Part shown: in pieces, positions 19,784-29,596 of the stretch | How the letters are laid out: each line of letters begins with the position of its first letter | Numbering within the stretch: the stretch's first letter is position 1 | NCBI GenBank assembly: GCA_023663225.1 | Contig: JAMPHU010000012.1 | Location: 1 to 64,000 of the forward strand | Direction: 5' to 3' | Source: Candidatus Gastranaerophilales bacterium | GTDB taxonomy: Bacteria; Bacillota; Clostridia; Lachnospirales; Lachnospiraceae | Length of the DNA stretch: 64,000 nt | Translations under genes and position numbers: made by a program | Notes under the pieces: generated by a model | What the model saw: the letters and a program-made list of their open reading frames with translations, nothing else | The model's database searches: none | Told to the model about the DNA's origin: nothing

Positions 19784-20030
19784 AGTGAAAAGGCTGTGAC
19801 CGGAAAGAGTACTTTTGCCGGAAGGCGTCAGAGAGGAGCTGCCATATGGCTGCAAGCAGCTCTCGCCGGAGGAAAAGGAAGTGCGTCCGTGAGCCGATCC
19901 GGTGAAGGGAGTCTGTAGTCGGGTACGTTCGCGCGCGTTAAGCGCATAGAGGGAAAGGCAGACTGCCTTTAAGTAGAGTGGGACCGCGGATAAAACCGTC
20001 TCTGTGTGGAGAGGTTTTGTCCGCTTTTTT
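19784..20030 (+). promoter_or_regulatory. T-box leader, cysteine-specific
   Basis: A tRNA-sensing leader that ends transcription unless uncharged tRNA-Cys is bound. The conserved T-box sequence AGAGTGGGACCGCGG lies at about 19975-19989. It overlaps a strong terminator: GCGGATAAAACC (from 19986) pairs with GGTTTTGTCCGC (ending 20024), followed by six T. A Stem I GA motif (AGAGAGG) is at about 19830. GGAAGTGCGTCC places TGC at 19882-19884 in the specifier position, the codon for cysteine, which agrees with cysE and cysS downstream. Specifier placement is by pattern, not by folding software. Confidence 0.9.
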
Positions 20031-20104: not shown

Positions 20105-20791
20105 GTGGGTTTTATCAGAGATGAGATTAAGATGATACGGGAGAGAGACCCGGCTATCCACTCCAATATGGAGGTGTTTTTGTATCCCAGTTTCAAGGCG
20201 ATGCTGCACTATCGGATCGCGCATAAGCTGTATCTGAAAAAGCATTATTTTCTCGCCCGCTATATCTCCCAGAGAGGCGCGCGCAAGACAGGGATTGAGA
20301 TTCATCCGGGAGCGCAGATCGGGAAAGGGTTTTTTATAGACCACGGCATCGGCGTGATCGTGGGCGAGACTACGGTTGTCGGAGACAATGTCACTCTGTA
20401 TCAGGGTGTTACGTTGGGGGGAACCGGCAAGGAGCATGGCAAGCGCCATCCCACCATCGGCAACAATGTCATGATCAGCGCCGGCGCCAAGGTGTTAGGC
20501 TCCTTTACGATCGGGGATAATTCTAAGATCGGAGCGGGGAGTGTGGTACTGCATGAAGTGCCGCCCAATTCCACGGTGGTAGGTGTGCCGGGAAGCGTGG
20601 TAAAGCGTTTCAACAAGCAACTGCCGCAGGAGACTTTAAATCACGACGATCTGCCGGATCCTGTCAGAGAGGATATCACTTGTCTGCAAAAAGCCAATTC
20701 CGTGTTGACCACAAGGCTTTTGGAATTGGAGGACGAAGTGAAGGTGCTGCGGCAGCAGCTAAAGAAAAGTGAGGATGGAGGAAAACAATGA
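20105..20791 (+). CDS. cysE: Serine O-acetyltransferase
   Basis: Makes O-acetylserine from serine and acetyl-CoA, committing step of cysteine synthesis. The 228 residues contain an N-terminal helical part and a left-handed beta-helix of hexapeptide repeats (GIEIHPGAQIGKGFFIDHGIG, then GETTVVGDNVTLYQGVTLGG, typical of SAT), with catalytic His in FIDHG and RHPTIGNNV. A GTG at 20105 is chosen because AGGAGG lies eight bases upstream; a TTG at 20081 in the same frame has no such site. A coiled, charged C-terminal extension (about 200-228) is present. The stop overlaps the cysS start (ATGA). Expression should rise when tRNA-Cys is uncharged. Confidence 0.95.
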   Translation: MGFIRDEIKMIRERDPAIHSNMEVFLYPSFKAMLHYRIAHKLYLKKHYFLARYISQRGARKTGIEIHPGAQIGKGFFIDHGIGVIVGETTVVGDNVTLYQGVTLGGTGKEHGKRHPTIGNNVMISAGAKVLGSFTIGDNSKIGAGSVVLHEVPPNSTVVGVPGSVVKRFNKQLPQETLNHDDLPDPVREDITCLQKANSVLTTRLLELEDEVKVLRQQLKKSEDGGKQ

Positions 20792-22203
20792 GTTTGAAGA
20801 TTTATAACACACTGACCAAGAAGAAGGAGGATTTCGTGCCGATAGAGGCGGGAAAGGTCAAGATGTATGTGTGCGGCCCCACAGTGTACAATCTGATCCA
20901 CATCGGCAACGCCCGCCCTATGATCGTGTTTGACACGGCCCGCCGTTATATGGAGCGCAAAGGGTTCGAGGTGAATTATGTATCCAATTTTACGGATGTG
21001 GACGACAAGATCATCAAGAAGGCCATTGAGGAGGGCGTCAGCTCCGATGTGATATCCGAGCGTTATATCAAAGAGTGCAAAAAGGATATGGAGGGGATGA
21101 ACGTGAGGCCCGCCACAATGCATCCGTTGGCTACGCAGGAGATCGACGGGATGCTCGAGATGATTCGGACGTTGATTCAGAAGGAACATGCCTATGCGGC
21201 GGCGGACGGCACCGTGTATTTCCGCACCAGAAGTTTTGCGGAGTACGGCAAGCTCTCTCACAAGAATCTGGACGATCTGCGGGGCGGAAACAGGTCTCTG
21301 CTGGTATCCGGCGAGGATCAGAAGGAGGATCCCTTGGACTTTGTGCTCTGGAAACCCAAAAAGGAGGGAGAGCCCTACTGGGAGTCCGAGTGGTGTGAGG
21401 GGCGTCCCGGGTGGCATATTGAGTGCTCCGTTATGAGCAAGAAATACTTGGGGGATCAGATCGACATTCACGCGGGCGGCGAGGATCTGGTGTTTCCGCA
21501 CCATGAGAATGAGATCGCGCAGTCCGAGGCGGCAAACGGCAAGACCTTTGCGAGATACTGGATGCACAATGCCTTTTTGAATATAGACAATCGCAAGATG
21601 TCCAAATCGGCGGGCAACTTTTTTACGGTCAGAGATATCAGCGAAAAATATGACCTGCAAGTGCTTCGTTTCTTTATGCTGTCCGCGCATTACAGAAGTC
21701 CCCTGAACTTCAGCGATCAACTGATGGAGGCCGCAAAGAGCGGCTATGAGCGCATTGTGACCAGCGTGGAGAACCTGAATTTCCTGCTTTCCAACGCAGG
21801 CGCGGAGGAGTTGACAGAGGCGGAGAGCGGACTTTTGAGAGAGGCGGAAGCGTTTGAGAGCAGGTTTGACGAAGCCATGGACGATGATTTCAATACGGCG
21901 GATGCGCTCTCGGTGATCTTTGAGCTAGTGAAGTTTACCAATACCAACGCGGGCGAGGGCAGCAGCAAAGCTTTTTTGGAAGCGCTGAAAAAGGAGATCG
22001 TGGTTCTGTCCGATGTGTGCGGACTGATCGTGGAGAGAAAGGCGGAACTTTTGGACAGCGATATTGAGACTCTGATCGCGGCGCGCCAGGAGGCGAGGAA
22101 AGCGCGCGATTTTGCCAAGGCGGATGCGATTCGGGACGAGCTGCTTCAAAAAGGGATCATTCTGGAAGATACGCGAGAGGGTGTGAAATGGAAGAAAGCA
22201 TGA
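20788..22203 (+). CDS. cysS: Cysteinyl-tRNA synthetase
   Basis: Charges tRNA-Cys (class I). The 471-residue product has the zinc site and HIGH motif at YVCGPTVYNLIHIGNARP (about 27-44), the WHIECSVMS zinc-ligand region, HAGGEDLVFPHHENEIAQSE and the KMSKS loop (NRKMSKSAGNFF, about 268-279). The C-terminus is a short helical anticodon-binding domain. Length fits the usual 460-470. The start overlaps the cysE stop by four bases, so both respond to the same T-box; the 3' end overlaps mrnC. Confidence 0.97.
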   Translation: MSLKIYNTLTKKKEDFVPIEAGKVKMYVCGPTVYNLIHIGNARPMIVFDTARRYMERKGFEVNYVSNFTDVDDKIIKKAIEEGVSSDVISERYIKECKKDMEGMNVRPATMHPLATQEIDGMLEMIRTLIQKEHAYAAADGTVYFRTRSFAEYGKLSHKNLDDLRGGNRSLLVSGEDQKEDPLDFVLWKPKKEGEPYWESEWCEGRPGWHIECSVMSKKYLGDQIDIHAGGEDLVFPHHENEIAQSEAANGKTFARYWMHNAFLNIDNRKMSKSAGNFFTVRDISEKYDLQVLRFFMLSAHYRSPLNFSDQLMEAAKSGYERIVTSVENLNFLLSNAGAEELTEAESGLLREAEAFESRFDEAMDDDFNTADALSVIFELVKFTNTNAGEGSSKAFLEALKKEIVVLSDVCGLIVERKAELLDSDIETLIAARQEARKARDFAKADAIRDELLQKGIILEDTREGVKWKKA

Positions 22204-25325: not shown

Positions 25326-25374
25326 AATATGAGAAAATATATAGTACATCCCTTGATAGAAAGGAGACATGACA

Positions 25375-25683
25375 ATGGCAGAACAGGCACTCGTACAGGT
25401 GCGCTTAGACAAAGATTTGCGGGATGAAGTGGCAGATATTTATGCAAAAATGGGGCTCGACATACCGACCGCCATTCGGATGTTTTTTGCCCGTACAAAA
25501 ATTGAAAAAGGGCTTCCTTTTGCAACGACCCTTCCAAGGACTGACGAAACAATACTGCGAGAAAGAGGTTTGCAGGCACTTGAGAATATTAGGATCAATG
25601 CGGGAACATTCCCAGAAATGACACTGGATGAGATTAACGCAGAGATTGCAGCGGCCCGTGCCGAGCGGAAAGCAGGTCAATAA
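25375..25683 (+). CDS. RelB/DinJ-family antitoxin
   Basis: The 102-residue product starts MAEQALVQVRLDKDLRDEVADIYAKMGLDIPTAIRMFFARTKIEKGLPF, the ribbon-helix-helix DNA-binding signature of RelB/DinJ antitoxins, which bind and repress their own promoter and cover the toxin with the C-terminal part. A helical stretch (DEINAEIAAARAERKAGQ) ends the protein. The second of two ATGs (25375) is best spaced from AAAGGAG. The TAA shares one base with the toxin ATG. Partner unusual: RelB/DinJ antitoxins normally go with RelE/YafQ toxins, here a PIN-domain protein follows. Confidence 0.88.
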   Translation: MAEQALVQVRLDKDLRDEVADIYAKMGLDIPTAIRMFFARTKIEKGLPFATTLPRTDETILRERGLQALENIRINAGTFPEMTLDEINAEIAAARAERKAGQ

Positions 25684-26153
25684 TGTCTATCTTAGCAGTA
25701 ATCGACACCAATGTAATTATATCAGTATTGCTCACGAGGAACAAGGAGTCGGCGACTTATCGGGTAATTCAAGCGGTACTTGATGGGCGGGTCACGCCGT
25801 TGTATCATCCGAAAATTTTGGCCGAATATAAAGAAGTAGCACATCGCCCAAAGTTTCATATTCACGAGAAAGACATTGATGTGATTCTTGAGGCTATTGA
25901 AATGTTTGGCATTGAGGTGCATCCATCCCCAACCGGCGAAGTAATCCCGGACATGGACGACCTGATATTTTATGAAGTAACGATGGAAAAGCGTGGAGAT
26001 GACGCATATCTCGTAACTGGGAACACCAGGCATTTCCCAGCTAAGAAGTTCGTCGTCACCCCAGCCGAGATGATGAAGATTATTGACGCTGTCCCCCCAA
26101 ACCGCTATAATAATTGCAGTAGCATAGACACGATCAATTCAAAAATGAGGTGA
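25683..26153 (+). CDS. PIN-domain toxin component (COG1569 type)
   Basis: Probable RNase toxin. The 156 residues begin SILAVIDTNVIISVLL, the first acidic position of the PIN fold, followed by ILAEYKEVAHRPKF, DMDDLIFYEV and GDDAYLVTGNTRHFP, supplying the other acidic residues of the active site. In this family the chain usually ends soon after VTPAEMMKII. Here about 22 further residues (DAVPPNRYNNCSSIDTINSKMR) are encoded by DNA that is also the promoter and leader of the next small gene, so the tail is probably an insertion by-product. Start overlaps the antitoxin stop by one base. Confidence 0.85.
   Translation: MSILAVIDTNVIISVLLTRNKESATYRVIQAVLDGRVTPLYHPKILAEYKEVAHRPKFHIHEKDIDVILEAIEMFGIEVHPSPTGEVIPDMDDLIFYEVTMEKRGDDAYLVTGNTRHFPAKKFVVTPAEMMKIIDAVPPNRYNNCSSIDTINSKMR
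26083..26111 (+). promoter_or_regulatory. Promoter of the second 58-aa small gene, inside the toxin 3' end
   Basis: TTGACG (26083-26088), 17-bp spacer, TATAAT (26106-26111). Bases 26102-26126 match 199-223 at the first small gene with one mismatch. The element lies wholly within the coding frame of the PIN-domain gene. Confidence 0.7.
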
Positions 26154-26157
26154 AAGG

Positions 26158-26334
26158 ATGGTAGCAGATATTAGTTTGGAAGAACAAAAAGAAGTCGCCA
26201 TTAATAGATATGTAGATTTAATGAGAATTAAAGCGCATGAAACGGGCGAAAACAAAGAACTTGATTATCAAATTAAGGTTGCAAAAGTAAAGTTGTCAAG
26301 TTTTGGCATTGATTATTCTGAACTTGAATTTTAA
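26158..26334 (+). CDS. 58-aa small protein, member 2 of a local paralogous family
   Basis: The 58-residue product is colinear with that at 254-430 (27 identities by hand count, no gap), with the same I..YV.L.RIK start of helix 1, EL.YQ..V.K.KL.S.GI in helix 2 and an acidic end. No known domain, signal or membrane segment. GAGGTGAAAGG precedes the ATG, as in the paralogue. The gene has its own promoter and a terminator 25 bases after the stop, so it forms a self-contained cassette of about 320 bp inserted behind a toxin gene. Function unknown; an interaction or regulatory role would be a guess. Confidence 0.75.
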   Translation: MVADISLEEQKEVAINRYVDLMRIKAHETGENKELDYQIKVAKVKLSSFGIDYSELEF

Positions 26335-26359
26335 AACGAAATAGCAACGGATGGACGAG

Positions 26360-26404
26360 GGTGTAGGGTCTTTATGGAATCACTAAGGATCTACACCTTT
26401 TTTG
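26360..26404 (+). terminator. Terminator of the second 58-aa gene
   Basis: GGTGTAG (26360-26366) pairs with CTACACC (26391-26397), with an inner GGTC/GATC match, followed by seven T. The sequence of the stem resembles the hairpin at 29535-29579. Confidence 0.8.
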
Positions 26405-26524
26405 TTTCCGTATTTCTGCAGTGCCGGACTTGATATATTTTGCCGAAAATGGTAAATTAGATAAAAGGGAATCTAAAAAGGGGATCATGTATGCAGAGCA
26501 ATCCGGTCGTGCTGAGAGGAGTAT

Positions 26525-27664
26525 ATGGATACAACACTTTCTATGGAAAAAAATAAGAAACAGTTGATAAGGGAGATCCAGGAAAGACTGGACTGGTACA
26601 ACTTTGAGGCGTCGGAAGAGGAATTTGACGAGAATGAAGTGATGGCGCTGGTAGAGTTGTTGAAGACGCTTGACGCAGGTGCGGTGGTGCAGACGCCGGA
26701 TGTGGATGAGTCTTATGAAAGGTTTCAGCAATTTCTGGAGATGAAGTGGGAGGATGCAGAGCGGCTTGCCGTCCTGCGCAGAGAGCGTGTGGCGGTCTCT
26801 GCGCCCGAAGTGGAGATCGGAGCTGAGTTTGCGACAGGGATGGAGAGCAAGTTCAAGATGGATTCTGCGACAGAGGCAGAAGCAGAGTCCAAGATCAAGG
26901 TAGCGTCCAAGAGGGGAGTGGAAAGCAAGATCGGGGTGGAGTCCAAGGCAGGAGCAGAATCTAAGATCGAGGCAGCACTCGATACAAGGGTAGCGAGCAA
27001 GGTCAAAGGAGAGATCGAGACCACGACCGATACAAAGCCCCCTCGCAAAGGCAGGATGCGTCACACGCATCGATATGTGGCTGCAGCCGCCGTCCTGGCG
27101 GTGGTTCTTGTGGCCGGCGGCACAGTGGGAGCAGTCAATGCCGAGAAAAAGGGCGGGGTATTCCAGTGGTTGTTTCGGGATGATAACAGTTCATTGATGG
27201 TGATATCACCGAATGATAATGAAAATTTTGGTTATGCAATTTCAACTGTTTTTTATAGTGAGGAAGATGTGCCCGAAAAATATCAGAAATACATGCCTGA
27301 TGTAGAGGAAATGGAGAGTTTGGAGGGATATACATTAAAAGAAATAGAGATACAAGAGATGACGCAGTTTGATTGGATCTTGTATAAAATAAATAAGGAA
27401 GAAAGAGAGTTAATGTTACGAATCGCGACATATCATGATTCTGTAGTGGTACAAAGTGACCAGTTTAACCATTATGAGTATTTGACTAGTATTGTTCTAC
27501 ATGATCAAGAGATGGAGCTTTATTCCAAAACTGATGATTCCGGCGAAACAGATTATATTGTTTCTTTTTTCAAGAATAAACAGCAATATGTAATACAGGG
27601 AAAACAGTCATTGGAATTCCTTGAACAAGTAGCGTTGGAATACTATAATACTTTAATTAAATAG
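26525..27664 (+). CDS. Single-pass membrane protein with DUF4367-like extracellular domain (anti-sigma-like)
   Basis: Of 379 residues, the N-terminal 180 are cytoplasmic and charged, one membrane helix spans about 182-204 (YVAAAAVLAVVLVAGGTVGAV), and about 205-379 are extracellular. The outer part (VFYSEEDVPEKYQKYMP, YTLKEIEIQ, then a beta-rich end with YIVSFFKNKQQYVIQGK) resembles DUF4367 proteins, several of which are anti-sigma factors, though no sigma gene lies next to it. Residues about 100-170 are a degenerate short repeat (ESKI.V.SK.G.ESKI) that looks like expanded low-complexity DNA. The first ATG (26525) is used; a second at 26543 is possible. It is followed by a terminator. Confidence 0.65.
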   Translation: MDTTLSMEKNKKQLIREIQERLDWYNFEASEEEFDENEVMALVELLKTLDAGAVVQTPDVDESYERFQQFLEMKWEDAERLAVLRRERVAVSAPEVEIGAEFATGMESKFKMDSATEAEAESKIKVASKRGVESKIGVESKAGAESKIEAALDTRVASKVKGEIETTTDTKPPRKGRMRHTHRYVAAAAVLAVVLVAGGTVGAVNAEKKGGVFQWLFRDDNSSLMVISPNDNENFGYAISTVFYSEEDVPEKYQKYMPDVEEMESLEGYTLKEIEIQEMTQFDWILYKINKEERELMLRIATYHDSVVVQSDQFNHYEYLTSIVLHDQEMELYSKTDDSGETDYIVSFFKNKQQYVIQGKQSLEFLEQVALEYYNTLIK

Positions 27665-27721: not shown

Positions 27722-27928
27722 GGAAAAACGCGATATCAAAAGACGATGATCTTTATCTGCTATGCTAAAAATATCCTCTAAAAGAAAAAAATATAAAATT
27801 TAAATTTTTTTTAAAAATTTTTGTAAGATTTGGGCTCCTGAAGTCATATTAATGTAGAAGGGTGAAATGAGGAAGCGAGTGGGGCATGGAAATCCTTCAA
27901 TACACAAAAGACAAAGGAGTGGTACGAA

Positions 27929-28441
27929 ATGAAACAGAGAGTGAGGAAACAAGGAAAGAAGCTCTTAGGTCTGGCTTTGGCGGCAGCTTTTATGCTCGTA
28001 CAGCCTGTGGCTACGGTGCAGGCGGCAGCAGCGGATGAGACAGAGGATGACGTGGAGCAGCTTGAGACCACCGTGTATGAGCTGTCCGAGGAGGAGCTAG
28101 CAGGGATACCGAGCGCGTATACAATGCTTAGTGGATGCAGTATCGTGGTGGGATGTGATGAGAGAGGTCTGATAGTAGACATCACTACTGGTGCGACACA
28201 GACAGCGTCCTTATTGGGCATAAAGGATATCGTGGTTGAACAGCAGAAGTGGTATGGCTGGAAACCGGTCGCAACGGCTCCTGGAGTGGAAATTCAAAAC
28301 AGGGCTGGTGTAGGAGTCAGCTTTATCTATACCGGCGCTGTATATGGCGAGACATACCGGATCTCCTGTGTCCACTATGGCACAGTAGATTCCTATACGG
28401 AGGAGGAGCATGTCACTCCTGGGATCGTCTATAAGTATTGA
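27929..28441 (+). CDS. Small secreted protein of unknown function
   Basis: The 170-residue product has a typical signal peptide (basic MKQRVRKQGKK, hydrophobic LLGLALAAAFMLVQPVA, cleavage probably after VQA near residue 33), an acidic linker (ADETEDDVEQLE), then about 110 residues rich in Gly, Val and aromatic residues with two cysteines (SGCSIVVGCDE) and one later Cys. The body reads as a small beta-sandwich. No anchor, lipobox or sorting motif is present, so release to the medium is likely. I do not recognise the family with certainty. A hairpin (GATGTTT-CTT-AAACATC, 28440-28456) overlaps the stop codon. Confidence 0.7.
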   Translation: MKQRVRKQGKKLLGLALAAAFMLVQPVATVQAAAADETEDDVEQLETTVYELSEEELAGIPSAYTMLSGCSIVVGCDERGLIVDITTGATQTASLLGIKDIVVEQQKWYGWKPVATAPGVEIQNRAGVGVSFIYTGAVYGETYRISCVHYGTVDSYTEEEHVTPGIVYKY

Positions 28442-28504
28442 TGTTTCTTAAACATCCGTCTTTTGTGTAAAGGTGGGATTTCAAACCGAGTAGAGCGACT
28501 TGTT

Positions 28505-28628
28505 AAACAGTTATCAGCGGTTGGGTGGGTAGTCGTCGAAAGGGGAATTCGGCCGGGGTTAAGTGATATAGCAGCTATCCTCCCGTCGAGGCGCTGCACA
28601 ACACTTTTTGTGGGACTGATAACTGTTT
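28505..28628 (+). ncRNA. Structured RNA candidate, copy 1
   Basis: Closed by a perfect 12-bp stem, AAACAGTTATCA (28505-28516) with TGATAACTGTTT (28617-28628). Inside: GTCGAA/TTCGGC hairpin (one G-U in place of the U-A in copies 2 and 3), CCTC-CCGTC-GAGG nested in GCAG/CTGC, and CAC-TTTTT-GTG. Conserved unpaired blocks are GGGTGGGTAG, AAAGGGGAA, GGGGTTAA and GTGATATAGCAG. Variation is concentrated in loops, as expected for a conserved RNA. Direction is inferred. Confidence 0.65.
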
Positions 28629-28709
28629 TAAAACTGAATAAAGCATTTTCCAATTATTTGTTAATCTATGGAGTAAAAGGGAGAATTCAAAACCGAGAAG
28701 GCGGCTTAT

Positions 28710-28832
28710 AAACAGTTATCAACGGTAGGGTGGGTAGTCGTCGAAAGGGGAATTCGACCGGGGTTAACGTGATATAGCAGTCACCCTCTCGTGAGGCGCT
28801 GCAAAACACTATTGTGGGTTTGATAACTGTTT
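28710..28832 (+). ncRNA. Structured RNA candidate, copy 2
   Basis: Same 12-bp closing stem (28710-28721 with 28821-28832). GTCGAA/TTCGAC, AGGGTG/CACCCT, CCTC-TCGT-GAGG inside GCAG/CTGC and CAC-TATT-GTG can form. It differs from copy 3 only in hairpin loops and next to the closing stem. Confidence 0.65.
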
Positions 28833-28912
28833 AAAATTGAATAAAGCATTTTCCAATTATTTGTTAATCTATGGAGTAAAAGGGAGAATTCAAAACCGAG
28901 AAGGCGGCTTAT

Positions 28913-29036
28913 AAACAGTTATCAACGGTAGGGTGGGTAGTCGTCGAAAGGGGAATTCGACCGGGGTTAACGTGATATAGCAGTCACCCTCCCAGTGAGG
29001 CGCTGCAAAACACTATTGTGGGATTGATAACTGTTT
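28913..29036 (+). ncRNA. Structured RNA candidate, copy 3
   Basis: Closing stem at 28913-28924 and 29025-29036. CCTC-CCAGT-GAGG replaces the loop of copy 2. Just downstream are TCAAGCG-GATGA-CGCTTGA and GGCG-TTT-CGCC hairpins (about 29053-29090), which may end or process the transcript. Confidence 0.65.
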
Positions 29037-29138
29037 AAATAAGTCTGATATCGTTCAAGCGGATGACGCTTGATCTTTGCGGGCGTTTCGCCATTATATC
29101 CTGAGAGGTCTCAAAAGCGCTTTGATAATTGAATAGAC

Positions 29139-29167
29139 TTTACACCTTGATTGTGATATACTGTATA
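29139..29167 (+). promoter_or_regulatory. Promoter of the coiled-coil small gene
   Basis: TTTACA (29139-29144), 17-bp spacer, TGTATA (29162-29167). The upstream bases TTGATAATTGAATA match those before the first small gene at 165-178. Confidence 0.6.
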
Positions 29168-29218: not shown

Positions 29219-29509
29219 ATGACGGACAGTGAAAAGCTTGATCTGATTCTTGATAAAGTCAATAGCGTTGACACAAGAGTAAGTAATCTTGAATCTGATT
29301 TGCAAGAAGTCAAGAAACGAGTAACGAATACTGATTTGATACTTGAAAATGAGATCCGCGTCAATATACAGCGTGTCGCTGAAGGGCATCTTGACTTATC
29401 AAGAAATCTACATGATGCAATGAGGCCAAGTAATGAGGTTGAAATGTTGGCAATCAAGGTAAGAATGCTTGAAACAGATATCAGGGACTTAAAGGCAAAA
29501 ATGGCATAA
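29219..29509 (+). CDS. 96-aa coiled-coil protein
   Basis: The 96-residue product is almost entirely helical with heptad spacing of Leu, Val and Ile (LDLILDKVNSVDTRVSNLESDLQ, then VEMLAIKVRMLETDIRDLKAKM), so an oligomeric coiled coil is likely. There is no cysteine, no signal peptide and no DNA-binding motif. Proteins of this appearance are frequent near mobile or accessory genes of Lachnospiraceae and have no assigned role. A GGGGGGTGAGCAT sequence serves as ribosome binding site. Its promoter is of the same make as that of the 58-aa gene at 254, and its terminator stem contains the -35 of the next small gene. Confidence 0.75.
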   Translation: MTDSEKLDLILDKVNSVDTRVSNLESDLQEVKKRVTNTDLILENEIRVNIQRVAEGHLDLSRNLHDAMRPSNEVEMLAIKVRMLETDIRDLKAKMA

Positions 29510-29534: not shown

Positions 29535-29596
29535 TTAAGGTGTAAGGTCTTTATTGATTATTAAAGCTTTACACCTTAAGAACAGGTTGCTATAAT
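29535..29596 (+). promoter_or_regulatory. Terminator stem overlapping the promoter of the third small gene
   Basis: TTAAGGTGTAA (29535-29545) and TTACACCTTAA (29569-29579) form an 11-bp stem. The right arm contains TTTACA (29568-29573), which with a 17-bp spacer and TATAAT (29591-29596) forms the promoter for the gene at 29644. The same DNA therefore ends one gene and starts the next. No T-run follows the stem, so termination may be weak. Confidence 0.65.

Follow-up and report, generated by a model that had tools for sequence, protein, structure and literature searches.

Three tandem copies of a candidate structured RNA behind a secreted-protein gene, with relatives of the same anatomy in the genus

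The window, meaning the whole stretch of 64,000 nucleotides that was analysed, carries a gene for an anti-sigma-like membrane protein, a gene for a secreted protein and, behind the latter, three copies of a repeated element. The helices in the following list are numbered according to the fold described below.

26525..27664, + strand: gene of an anti-sigma-like membrane protein, whose homologues in relatives come after an ECF-type sigma gene
27820..27849, + strand: motif resembling an ECF-type promoter, TTTGTAA-N-GTCATAT, ahead of the secreted-protein gene
27929..28441, + strand: gene of a secreted protein of 170 aa, from an orphan family of part of the genus (homologues in 29 of 138 genus genomes, the window's own included)
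28463..28504, + strand: lead of copy 1, containing GTGTAAAGGTGGG; GTAAAAGGGAG is found instead at 28673 in copy 2 and at 28876 in copy 3
28505..28628, + strand: RNA copy 1, with P1 arms at 28505-28517 and 28616-28628
28523..28529, + strand: G tracts GGGTGGG shortly 3' of the P1 5' arm of copy 1 (28728-28734 in copy 2, 28931-28937 in copy 3), with equivalents in relatives
28535..28553, + strand: P2 hairpin of copy 1, loop AGGGGAA (beginning at 28740 in copy 2 and 28943 in copy 3), covarying in relatives
28571..28597, + strand: P3 hairpin of copy 1, GCAG...CTGC, with a block, GTGATATAGC.G...CGCTGCAAAA, common to the relative L172
28602..28612, + strand: P4 hairpin of copy 1, CAC-loop-GTG, then a G tract (28807-28816 in copy 2, 29011-29020 in copy 3), placed by consensus fold and covariation
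28629..28832, + strand: spacer and core of copy 2, the spacer beginning TTAAAACTGAATAAAGC; duplicated as 28833-29036 (copy 3)
28710..28832, + strand: RNA copy 2, placed by arm positions, spacing and consensus fold
28913..29036, + strand: RNA copy 3, placed in the same way

The product of 26525-27664 is related by BLASTP to proteins encoded in two relatives (E 2e-29 to L246:5782-6705 and 1e-20 to L244:9661-10620). It has a weak NCBIfam anti-sigma match, below the cut-off, and no Pfam match over the cut-off. In G402, G412 and G500, for each of which 12-18 kb were considered, the gene order is ECF-type sigma factor, anti-sigma-like protein, secreted protein, RNA and a KTSC-domain protein. A sigma gene is located upstream of the anti-sigma-like gene in all three regions inspected, identified by Pfam Sigma70_r2 in L244 and L246 (E 2.9e-6 and 3.5e-11) and by eye from the translation in L245. 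No sigma gene adjoins the anti-sigma-like gene of the window in the stretch 26101-26560, and the window may have lost it. The motif TTTGTAA..GTCATAT has a single match in the 64 kb of the window, both strands included. Of 30 loci, 15 have a match to a looser promoter pattern ahead of the secreted gene, a count made without a control run. Between 28441 and 29040 the search gave no sigma-70-type promoter and no terminator. None of the 16 members of the secreted family that were scanned has a Pfam match, and a comparison of the secreted protein with the PDB gave only two matches, at E 0.37 and 0.69. Taken together, the window operon resembles a cluster of ECF type that encodes an anti-sigma and a secreted protein, and its ECF-like promoter motif recurs in relatives. 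The surroundings, which had been described in the first-pass annotation as small orphan genes, are therefore not just orphans. The area ahead of the anti-sigma-like gene, which in relatives holds the ECF-type sigma gene, contains in the window a gene pair for a RelB-like antitoxin and a PIN toxin (25369-26153).

The first-pass annotation had proposed three tandem copies of a compact structured RNA, each closed by the same perfect 12-bp stem. The three copies and their stem are confirmed. The cores are 124, 123 and 124 nt long and are spaced by 205 and then 203 bases. The 12-nt arms of P1, AAACAGTTATCA (at 28505, 28710 and 28913) and TGATAACTGTTT (at 28617, 28821 and 29025), form an identical 12-bp stem in all copies, or 13 bp with the next pair. 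This thirteenth pair is compensatory, being G-C in copy 1 and A-U in copies 2 and 3. The blocks named as invariant are present in the three copies. The change in P2 that had been taken to keep pairing, TTCGAC to TTCGGC, indeed retains a G-U pair on the + strand; on the - strand it would be a C-A mismatch.

Over their cores, copies 2 and 3 are identical at 121 of 124 positions (3 differences), and their leading spacers at 79 of 81 (2 differences), the spacer being as conserved as the core. Copy 1 is identical to copy 2 or copy 3 at 111 of 125 positions (14 differences). Judged from these counts, copies 2 and 3 arose when a unit of about 203 nt was recently duplicated in tandem. Because of this, the window offers one informative comparison, not three, and the earlier view that the copies evolve as a noncoding RNA would be thinly supported by the three copies alone; what sustains it are the two-sided helix changes in relatives described below. 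No reading frame is conserved across the copies. An 82-aa ORF runs through copy 1, has no Pfam match up to E 1, and is broken by an indel in copies 2 and 3. The closing stem and the lengths also vary among loci.

The consensus fold contains the closing stem P1, P3 (GCAG..CTGC, with an inner CCTC/GAGG) and P4 (CAC..GTG). For P2 we prefer the pairing GTCGAA-AGGGGAA-TTCGAC; RNAalifold on the + strand favours other pairs there, and the P2 pairing is also the consensus fold of the opposite strand. Single-sequence folding of the three copies on the + strand is only modestly better than in shuffles (z -2.4 to -2.7). The - strand folds better, with z -5.2 and -4.2 for the two copies folded, so that folding energy alone does not favour the + strand.

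Relatives of the RNA were sought via the upstream secreted-protein gene, and 29 loci besides the window's own were inspected. In 10 of them (L047, L048, L049, L052, L053, L055, L060, L067, L068 and L069) an RNA of the same anatomy and other letters, hereafter the short form, is located 3' of the secreted gene on the same strand. Their closing stems differ from that of the window, and L055 is a near copy of L052. An eleventh unit outside the window, L172 in genome G523, lies directly before a KTSC gene and shares with the window copies the block GTGATATAGC.G...CGCTGCAAAA. A KTSC gene is found directly 3' of the RNA in six of these 11 units (L049, L053, L060, L067, L068 and L172), the RNA ending a few tens of bases before it. 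In nine loci (L050, L051, L054, L056, L057, L059, L061, L062 and L074) the KTSC gene follows the secreted gene without a recognised RNA. The window's own genome, which is 94.5% complete, has no KTSC match.

A longer G-rich RNA, probably related to the family, is present in three further loci, L058, L063 and L065. With R3, the 12-unit covariance model described below, these RNAs score weakly in L065 (15.0 bits, E 0.096) and L058 (13.5 bits, E 0.24), and that of L063 is absent from the R3 matches up to E 2. A motif similar to that of the window precedes all three. The corresponding pattern has 27 matches in 566,124 bases, both strands and gene promoters included, so that less than one match is expected in the stretches searched. 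With such scores and such a frequency of the pattern, it is probable, but not proven, that the longer RNAs are stand-alone genes with an ECF-like promoter of their own. In 16 of the 29 secreted-gene loci no RNA was recognised, which indicates that the operon does not depend on the RNA. In L058, L063, L070 and L071, the secreted gene is also followed directly by compact stem-closed elements with GTGTAAAAGGGG; they stand outside the RNA count and are possibly a reduced form of the family.

Comparison of the units gives a common order: P1, a G-tract joint, the P2 hairpin with its GGGG loop, P3, P4, a G tract and P1'. The sequence of P1 drifts among loci, the best uninterrupted stem having 6 to 14 Watson-Crick pairs. 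GGGNGGG occurs in the joint shortly past P1 (GGGTAGAAGGG in L053). The P2 loop contains GGGG, or GGG in L060, and was not recognised in L047. The P3 region consists of one or more variable hairpins, and P4 is a short hairpin. Upstream of the RNA, AAAACTGAATA and a GTAAAAGGGG-like stretch are common by eye to many loci and to the window spacers. A lead-like GTGTAAAAGGGG is likewise seen in relatives by eye.

The pairing of P1 was examined in 10 units, copy 1 plus one per locus; copies 2 and 3, L055 and L172 were left out. With anchors picked by eye, the best stem was taken between the bases immediately preceding the first G tracts and those immediately following the last G tract. Arms paired with their own partner form a mean of 9.0 Watson-Crick pairs, against 5.66 with partners from other loci, and the observed sum was reached in 6 of 100,000 permutations. 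This comparison is conservative because several loci share CAATTGTC-like arms.

The helices were then compared in an alignment of 12 units with constant filler linkers, from which copy 2, L055 and the P2 of L047 are missing. As this alignment was hand-fitted to the structure, its pairing and covariation figures flatter the structure. Two-sided changes are present in all 17 pairs compared in this hand-fitted alignment. They are the covariation among homologues that had been named as a check, and they support the earlier proposal of a structured noncoding RNA on the + strand. In the same hand-fitted alignment 95.0% of 199 cells are paired, against 57.3% in shuffles and 30-44% when slid, and the covariation score is 0.948, against 0.226 when shuffled and at most 0.161 when slid. 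The 199 cells comprise 179 Watson-Crick, 10 G-U, 2 A-C and 8 other combinations. The excess of G-U over A-C cells, 10 against 2, favours the + strand. Fold, strand and genomic place are thus shown at the level of sequence comparison.

These features bear on the possibility of a DNA element, either MITE-like or a protein-binding inverted repeat with 12-bp terminal repeats. Each copy is closed by perfect inverted repeats, the copies form a tandem array and presence is patchy. The terminal repeat nevertheless varies between loci yet stays complementary, the internal hairpins covary, G-U cells outnumber A-C cells, and the element has a fixed genomic place with no second one in its own genome. We consider a DNA element very improbable.

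Covariance models were used for wider searches. R1, built from the three copies, gave no convincing match beyond the window in 397 family and 138 genus genomes and missed the relatives; its two weak genus matches are short or partial. R2 was built from six units (copies 1 and 3, L049, L053, L060 and L069). Over the 138 genus genomes, 28 have a match up to E 3, mostly weak. The best three outside the building set are in G507 (E 1.7e-4), G523 (E 8.7e-4) and G402 (E 0.0013). In G507 and G402 the match is flanked by the secreted-protein gene on one side and a KTSC-domain gene on the other, and a match in G405 (E 0.17) lies directly 3' of the secreted gene. Matches ranked between G402 and G405 are in the wrong place (G528 E 0.014, G498 E 0.047 and G507:C11 E 0.14). 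R3 is a model of 12 units aligned by R2. Its false matches with short stems reach E 0.001 (L199 and L200). Over the 397 family genomes it gave weak matches in 28 other-genus genomes, down to E 3e-4, and in G022 of the window's own genus. Since false R3 matches reach E of about 3e-4, scores alone do not separate true from false, and genus matches are trusted for their genomic place. No believable RNA was found outside the genus among the 397 family genomes, where 13 of the 28 weak other-genus loci were inspected; these 13 (L216-L226, L228 and L229) are by eye coding or ordinary flanking sequence.

Searches by letters and by descriptor were carried out as well. The core, used as a DNA query, found nothing similar in 298 other family genomes, phages or plasmids. 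Patterns made of window blocks matched 10 viral and 11 genome contigs; the viral 10 look unrelated, and 15 of the 21 were run against R1 and gave no match. Further patterns matched 0, 0, 15, 0 and 5 viral contigs. Among the 15, L108 agreed with a loose descriptor, which was judged chance, and none agreed with a stricter one; the best R3 match in the 5 has E 0.061. Pattern GTGNATTGGGGAATTC, with one mismatch, has matches in 38 of the 138 genus genomes. Two exact matches are the known units L049 and L069. Of 30 loci inspected, L123, L129, L136 and L145 are shorter and showed the wrong place; among the other 26, the RNA was found only in L146, already known. A descriptor scan of 476,583 bases found 7 places, compared with 1 when the sequence was reversed, and one of the 7, in L083, is likely chance; a smaller set gave 8 against 1 reversed, the match of L068 being chance. 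The loose descriptor also flagged L051 and L122, both judged chance.

The region had been thought to hold either the raiA motif RNA or a new class, and an Rfam comparison had been suggested. Positions 28400-29150 have no Rfam match, even up to E 5. Scanning of 15 loci up to E 1, 14 of them with a relative, gave no match overlapping a unit; weak matches in relatives' loci fall outside the RNA units, for example rli61 on L068 and Atu_C9 on L060. The RNA family is thus new as far as tested, and raiA is not supported. It is very unlikely that the RNA belongs to a known Rfam family, for example raiA/ModT, and has merely diverged beyond recognition. This had been the earlier suggestion, and both are compact structured noncoding RNAs of Firmicutes type, but the own genome has no raiA (RF03072) match up to E 1, the genomic context is another, no covariance model matches here, and RF03072 has 209 model positions (about 210 nt) and eight helices, against 123-124 nt and four modelled helices. 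The raiA motif RNA, or ModT, is reported to act in trans in C. difficile (PMC11706538), and it is described as having helices P1-P8 and two pseudoknots (PMC11751092). The motifs of a 50-genome intergenic screen (PMC11109978) resemble the present RNA in being structured intergenic RNAs recognised by covariation; sigma factors came up there in two passages, both on other motifs. No description of the window's RNA was found in the literature, which is not proof of its absence there. In our judgement, this much covariation without an Rfam match is an uncommon find from one window.

The genomic place suggests two roles tied to neighbouring genes. The RNA could act in cis on the operon mRNA: as a structure in the 3' UTR or between cistrons, it would block exonucleases coming from the 3' end or guide processing, and would thereby stabilise the secreted-protein message or separate it from KTSC. 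Its closing stem is strong, it lies on the same strand directly 3' of the secreted gene in the window as in the 10 short-form loci, and KTSC or, in several loci, terminator-like hairpins (by eye) come next. A mere block, however, would not need the conserved GGGNGGG, the GGGG loop and GTGATATAGC. The probably related RNAs behind their own ECF-like motif in three loci, and the many secreted-gene loci (16 of 29) in which the RNA was not recognised, also argue against this role, which we regard as possible but doubtful. A 5'-leader regulator of the downstream KTSC gene, either a riboswitch or a protein-binding leader, is quite unlikely. The short distance to KTSC in six of the 11 short-form units outside the window speaks for it; in the other five and in the window no KTSC gene lies behind the RNA, the own genome lacks a KTSC match, and the nine KTSC genes listed above follow the secreted gene without it.

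We give about even weight to a small structured noncoding RNA family without Rfam entry, encoded on the + strand, carried by an ECF-type operon transcript or driven by its own promoter, and probably acting in trans. Transcription would start at the ECF-like promoter and read through from the secreted-protein gene into the RNA. The latter would then form the 3' portion of a + strand transcript of the operon (anti-sigma, secreted protein), whose expression would depend on an ECF-type sigma factor; a few relatives apparently transcribe the RNA from a separate ECF-like promoter. Processing would let the RNA accumulate separately. The conserved single-stranded G tracts may then be presented to a protein or RNA partner in trans while an envelope-type stress response is on, and triplication would raise the RNA dose. 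The KTSC protein is a candidate partner in genomes where its gene adjoins the RNA; it cannot be required in the window, whose own genome shows no match. Action in trans is favoured by the conservation of unpaired letters, by the promoters that the RNA probably has to itself in three loci and by its triplication, and disfavoured by the location of most units in an operon.

The RpoE-dependent RNAs MicA and RybB of enterobacteria are Hfq-dependent seed-pairing RNAs. The RNA of the window would resemble them as a noncoding RNA within a putative ECF-type envelope-stress regulon, but differs in having a conserved multi-helix fold with G tracts. To our knowledge, few noncoding RNAs are known in ECF-type sigma operons of Gram-positive anaerobes. 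The same place and fold with different letters, presence or absence among the species of one genus and a natural triplication make the family a test bed.

A more specific possibility, unlikely though not negligible, is a new ECF-induced RNA class in which four G tracts, two of them following P1, one from the loop of P2 and one preceding P1', gather atop the closing helix as a quadruplex or G-rich core. This core would be bound by a dedicated partner, adjoining in some species as KTSC, and the window lineage would have amplified the RNA to three copies after losing the sigma gene and KTSC. At least four GGG tracts are present in 11 of 12 units, but the count stands out from dinucleotide shuffles, at the 5% level, in 3 of the 12 only. 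The best 60-nt G4Hunter score is 0.93 in copy 1 and 0.87 in copies 2 and 3. The quadruplex is a guess, based on the position of the G tracts rather than on their count. CsrA recognises the consensus ANGGA; the idea of a CsrA sponge was dropped on inspection, the loop being AGGGGA.

Several KTSC genes of the genus (in L049, L053, L054, L056 and L059) lack an ATG, GTG or TTG where the Shine-Dalgarno-like sequence would position the start, and have ATT or ATC instead, as in ACGGAGG-N8-ATT of L054 and L056. This suggests that these genes use rare AUU or AUC starts. Downstream of copy 3, at 29219-29509, lies an orphan gene for a coiled-coil protein, which has two further copies in the own genome and matches in 72 of the 138 genus genomes, the own included. 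Short intergenic stretches around TTTACACCTT recur at 29124-29162 and 29536-29577. The first is repeated on another contig of the own genome; the second is likewise present on another contig there, and G418 has it two times. The two stretches are perhaps a shared promoter or operator. Elsewhere in the window, a T-box leader is located at 19787-20006, about 780 bases before a cysS-like ORF (20788-22203).
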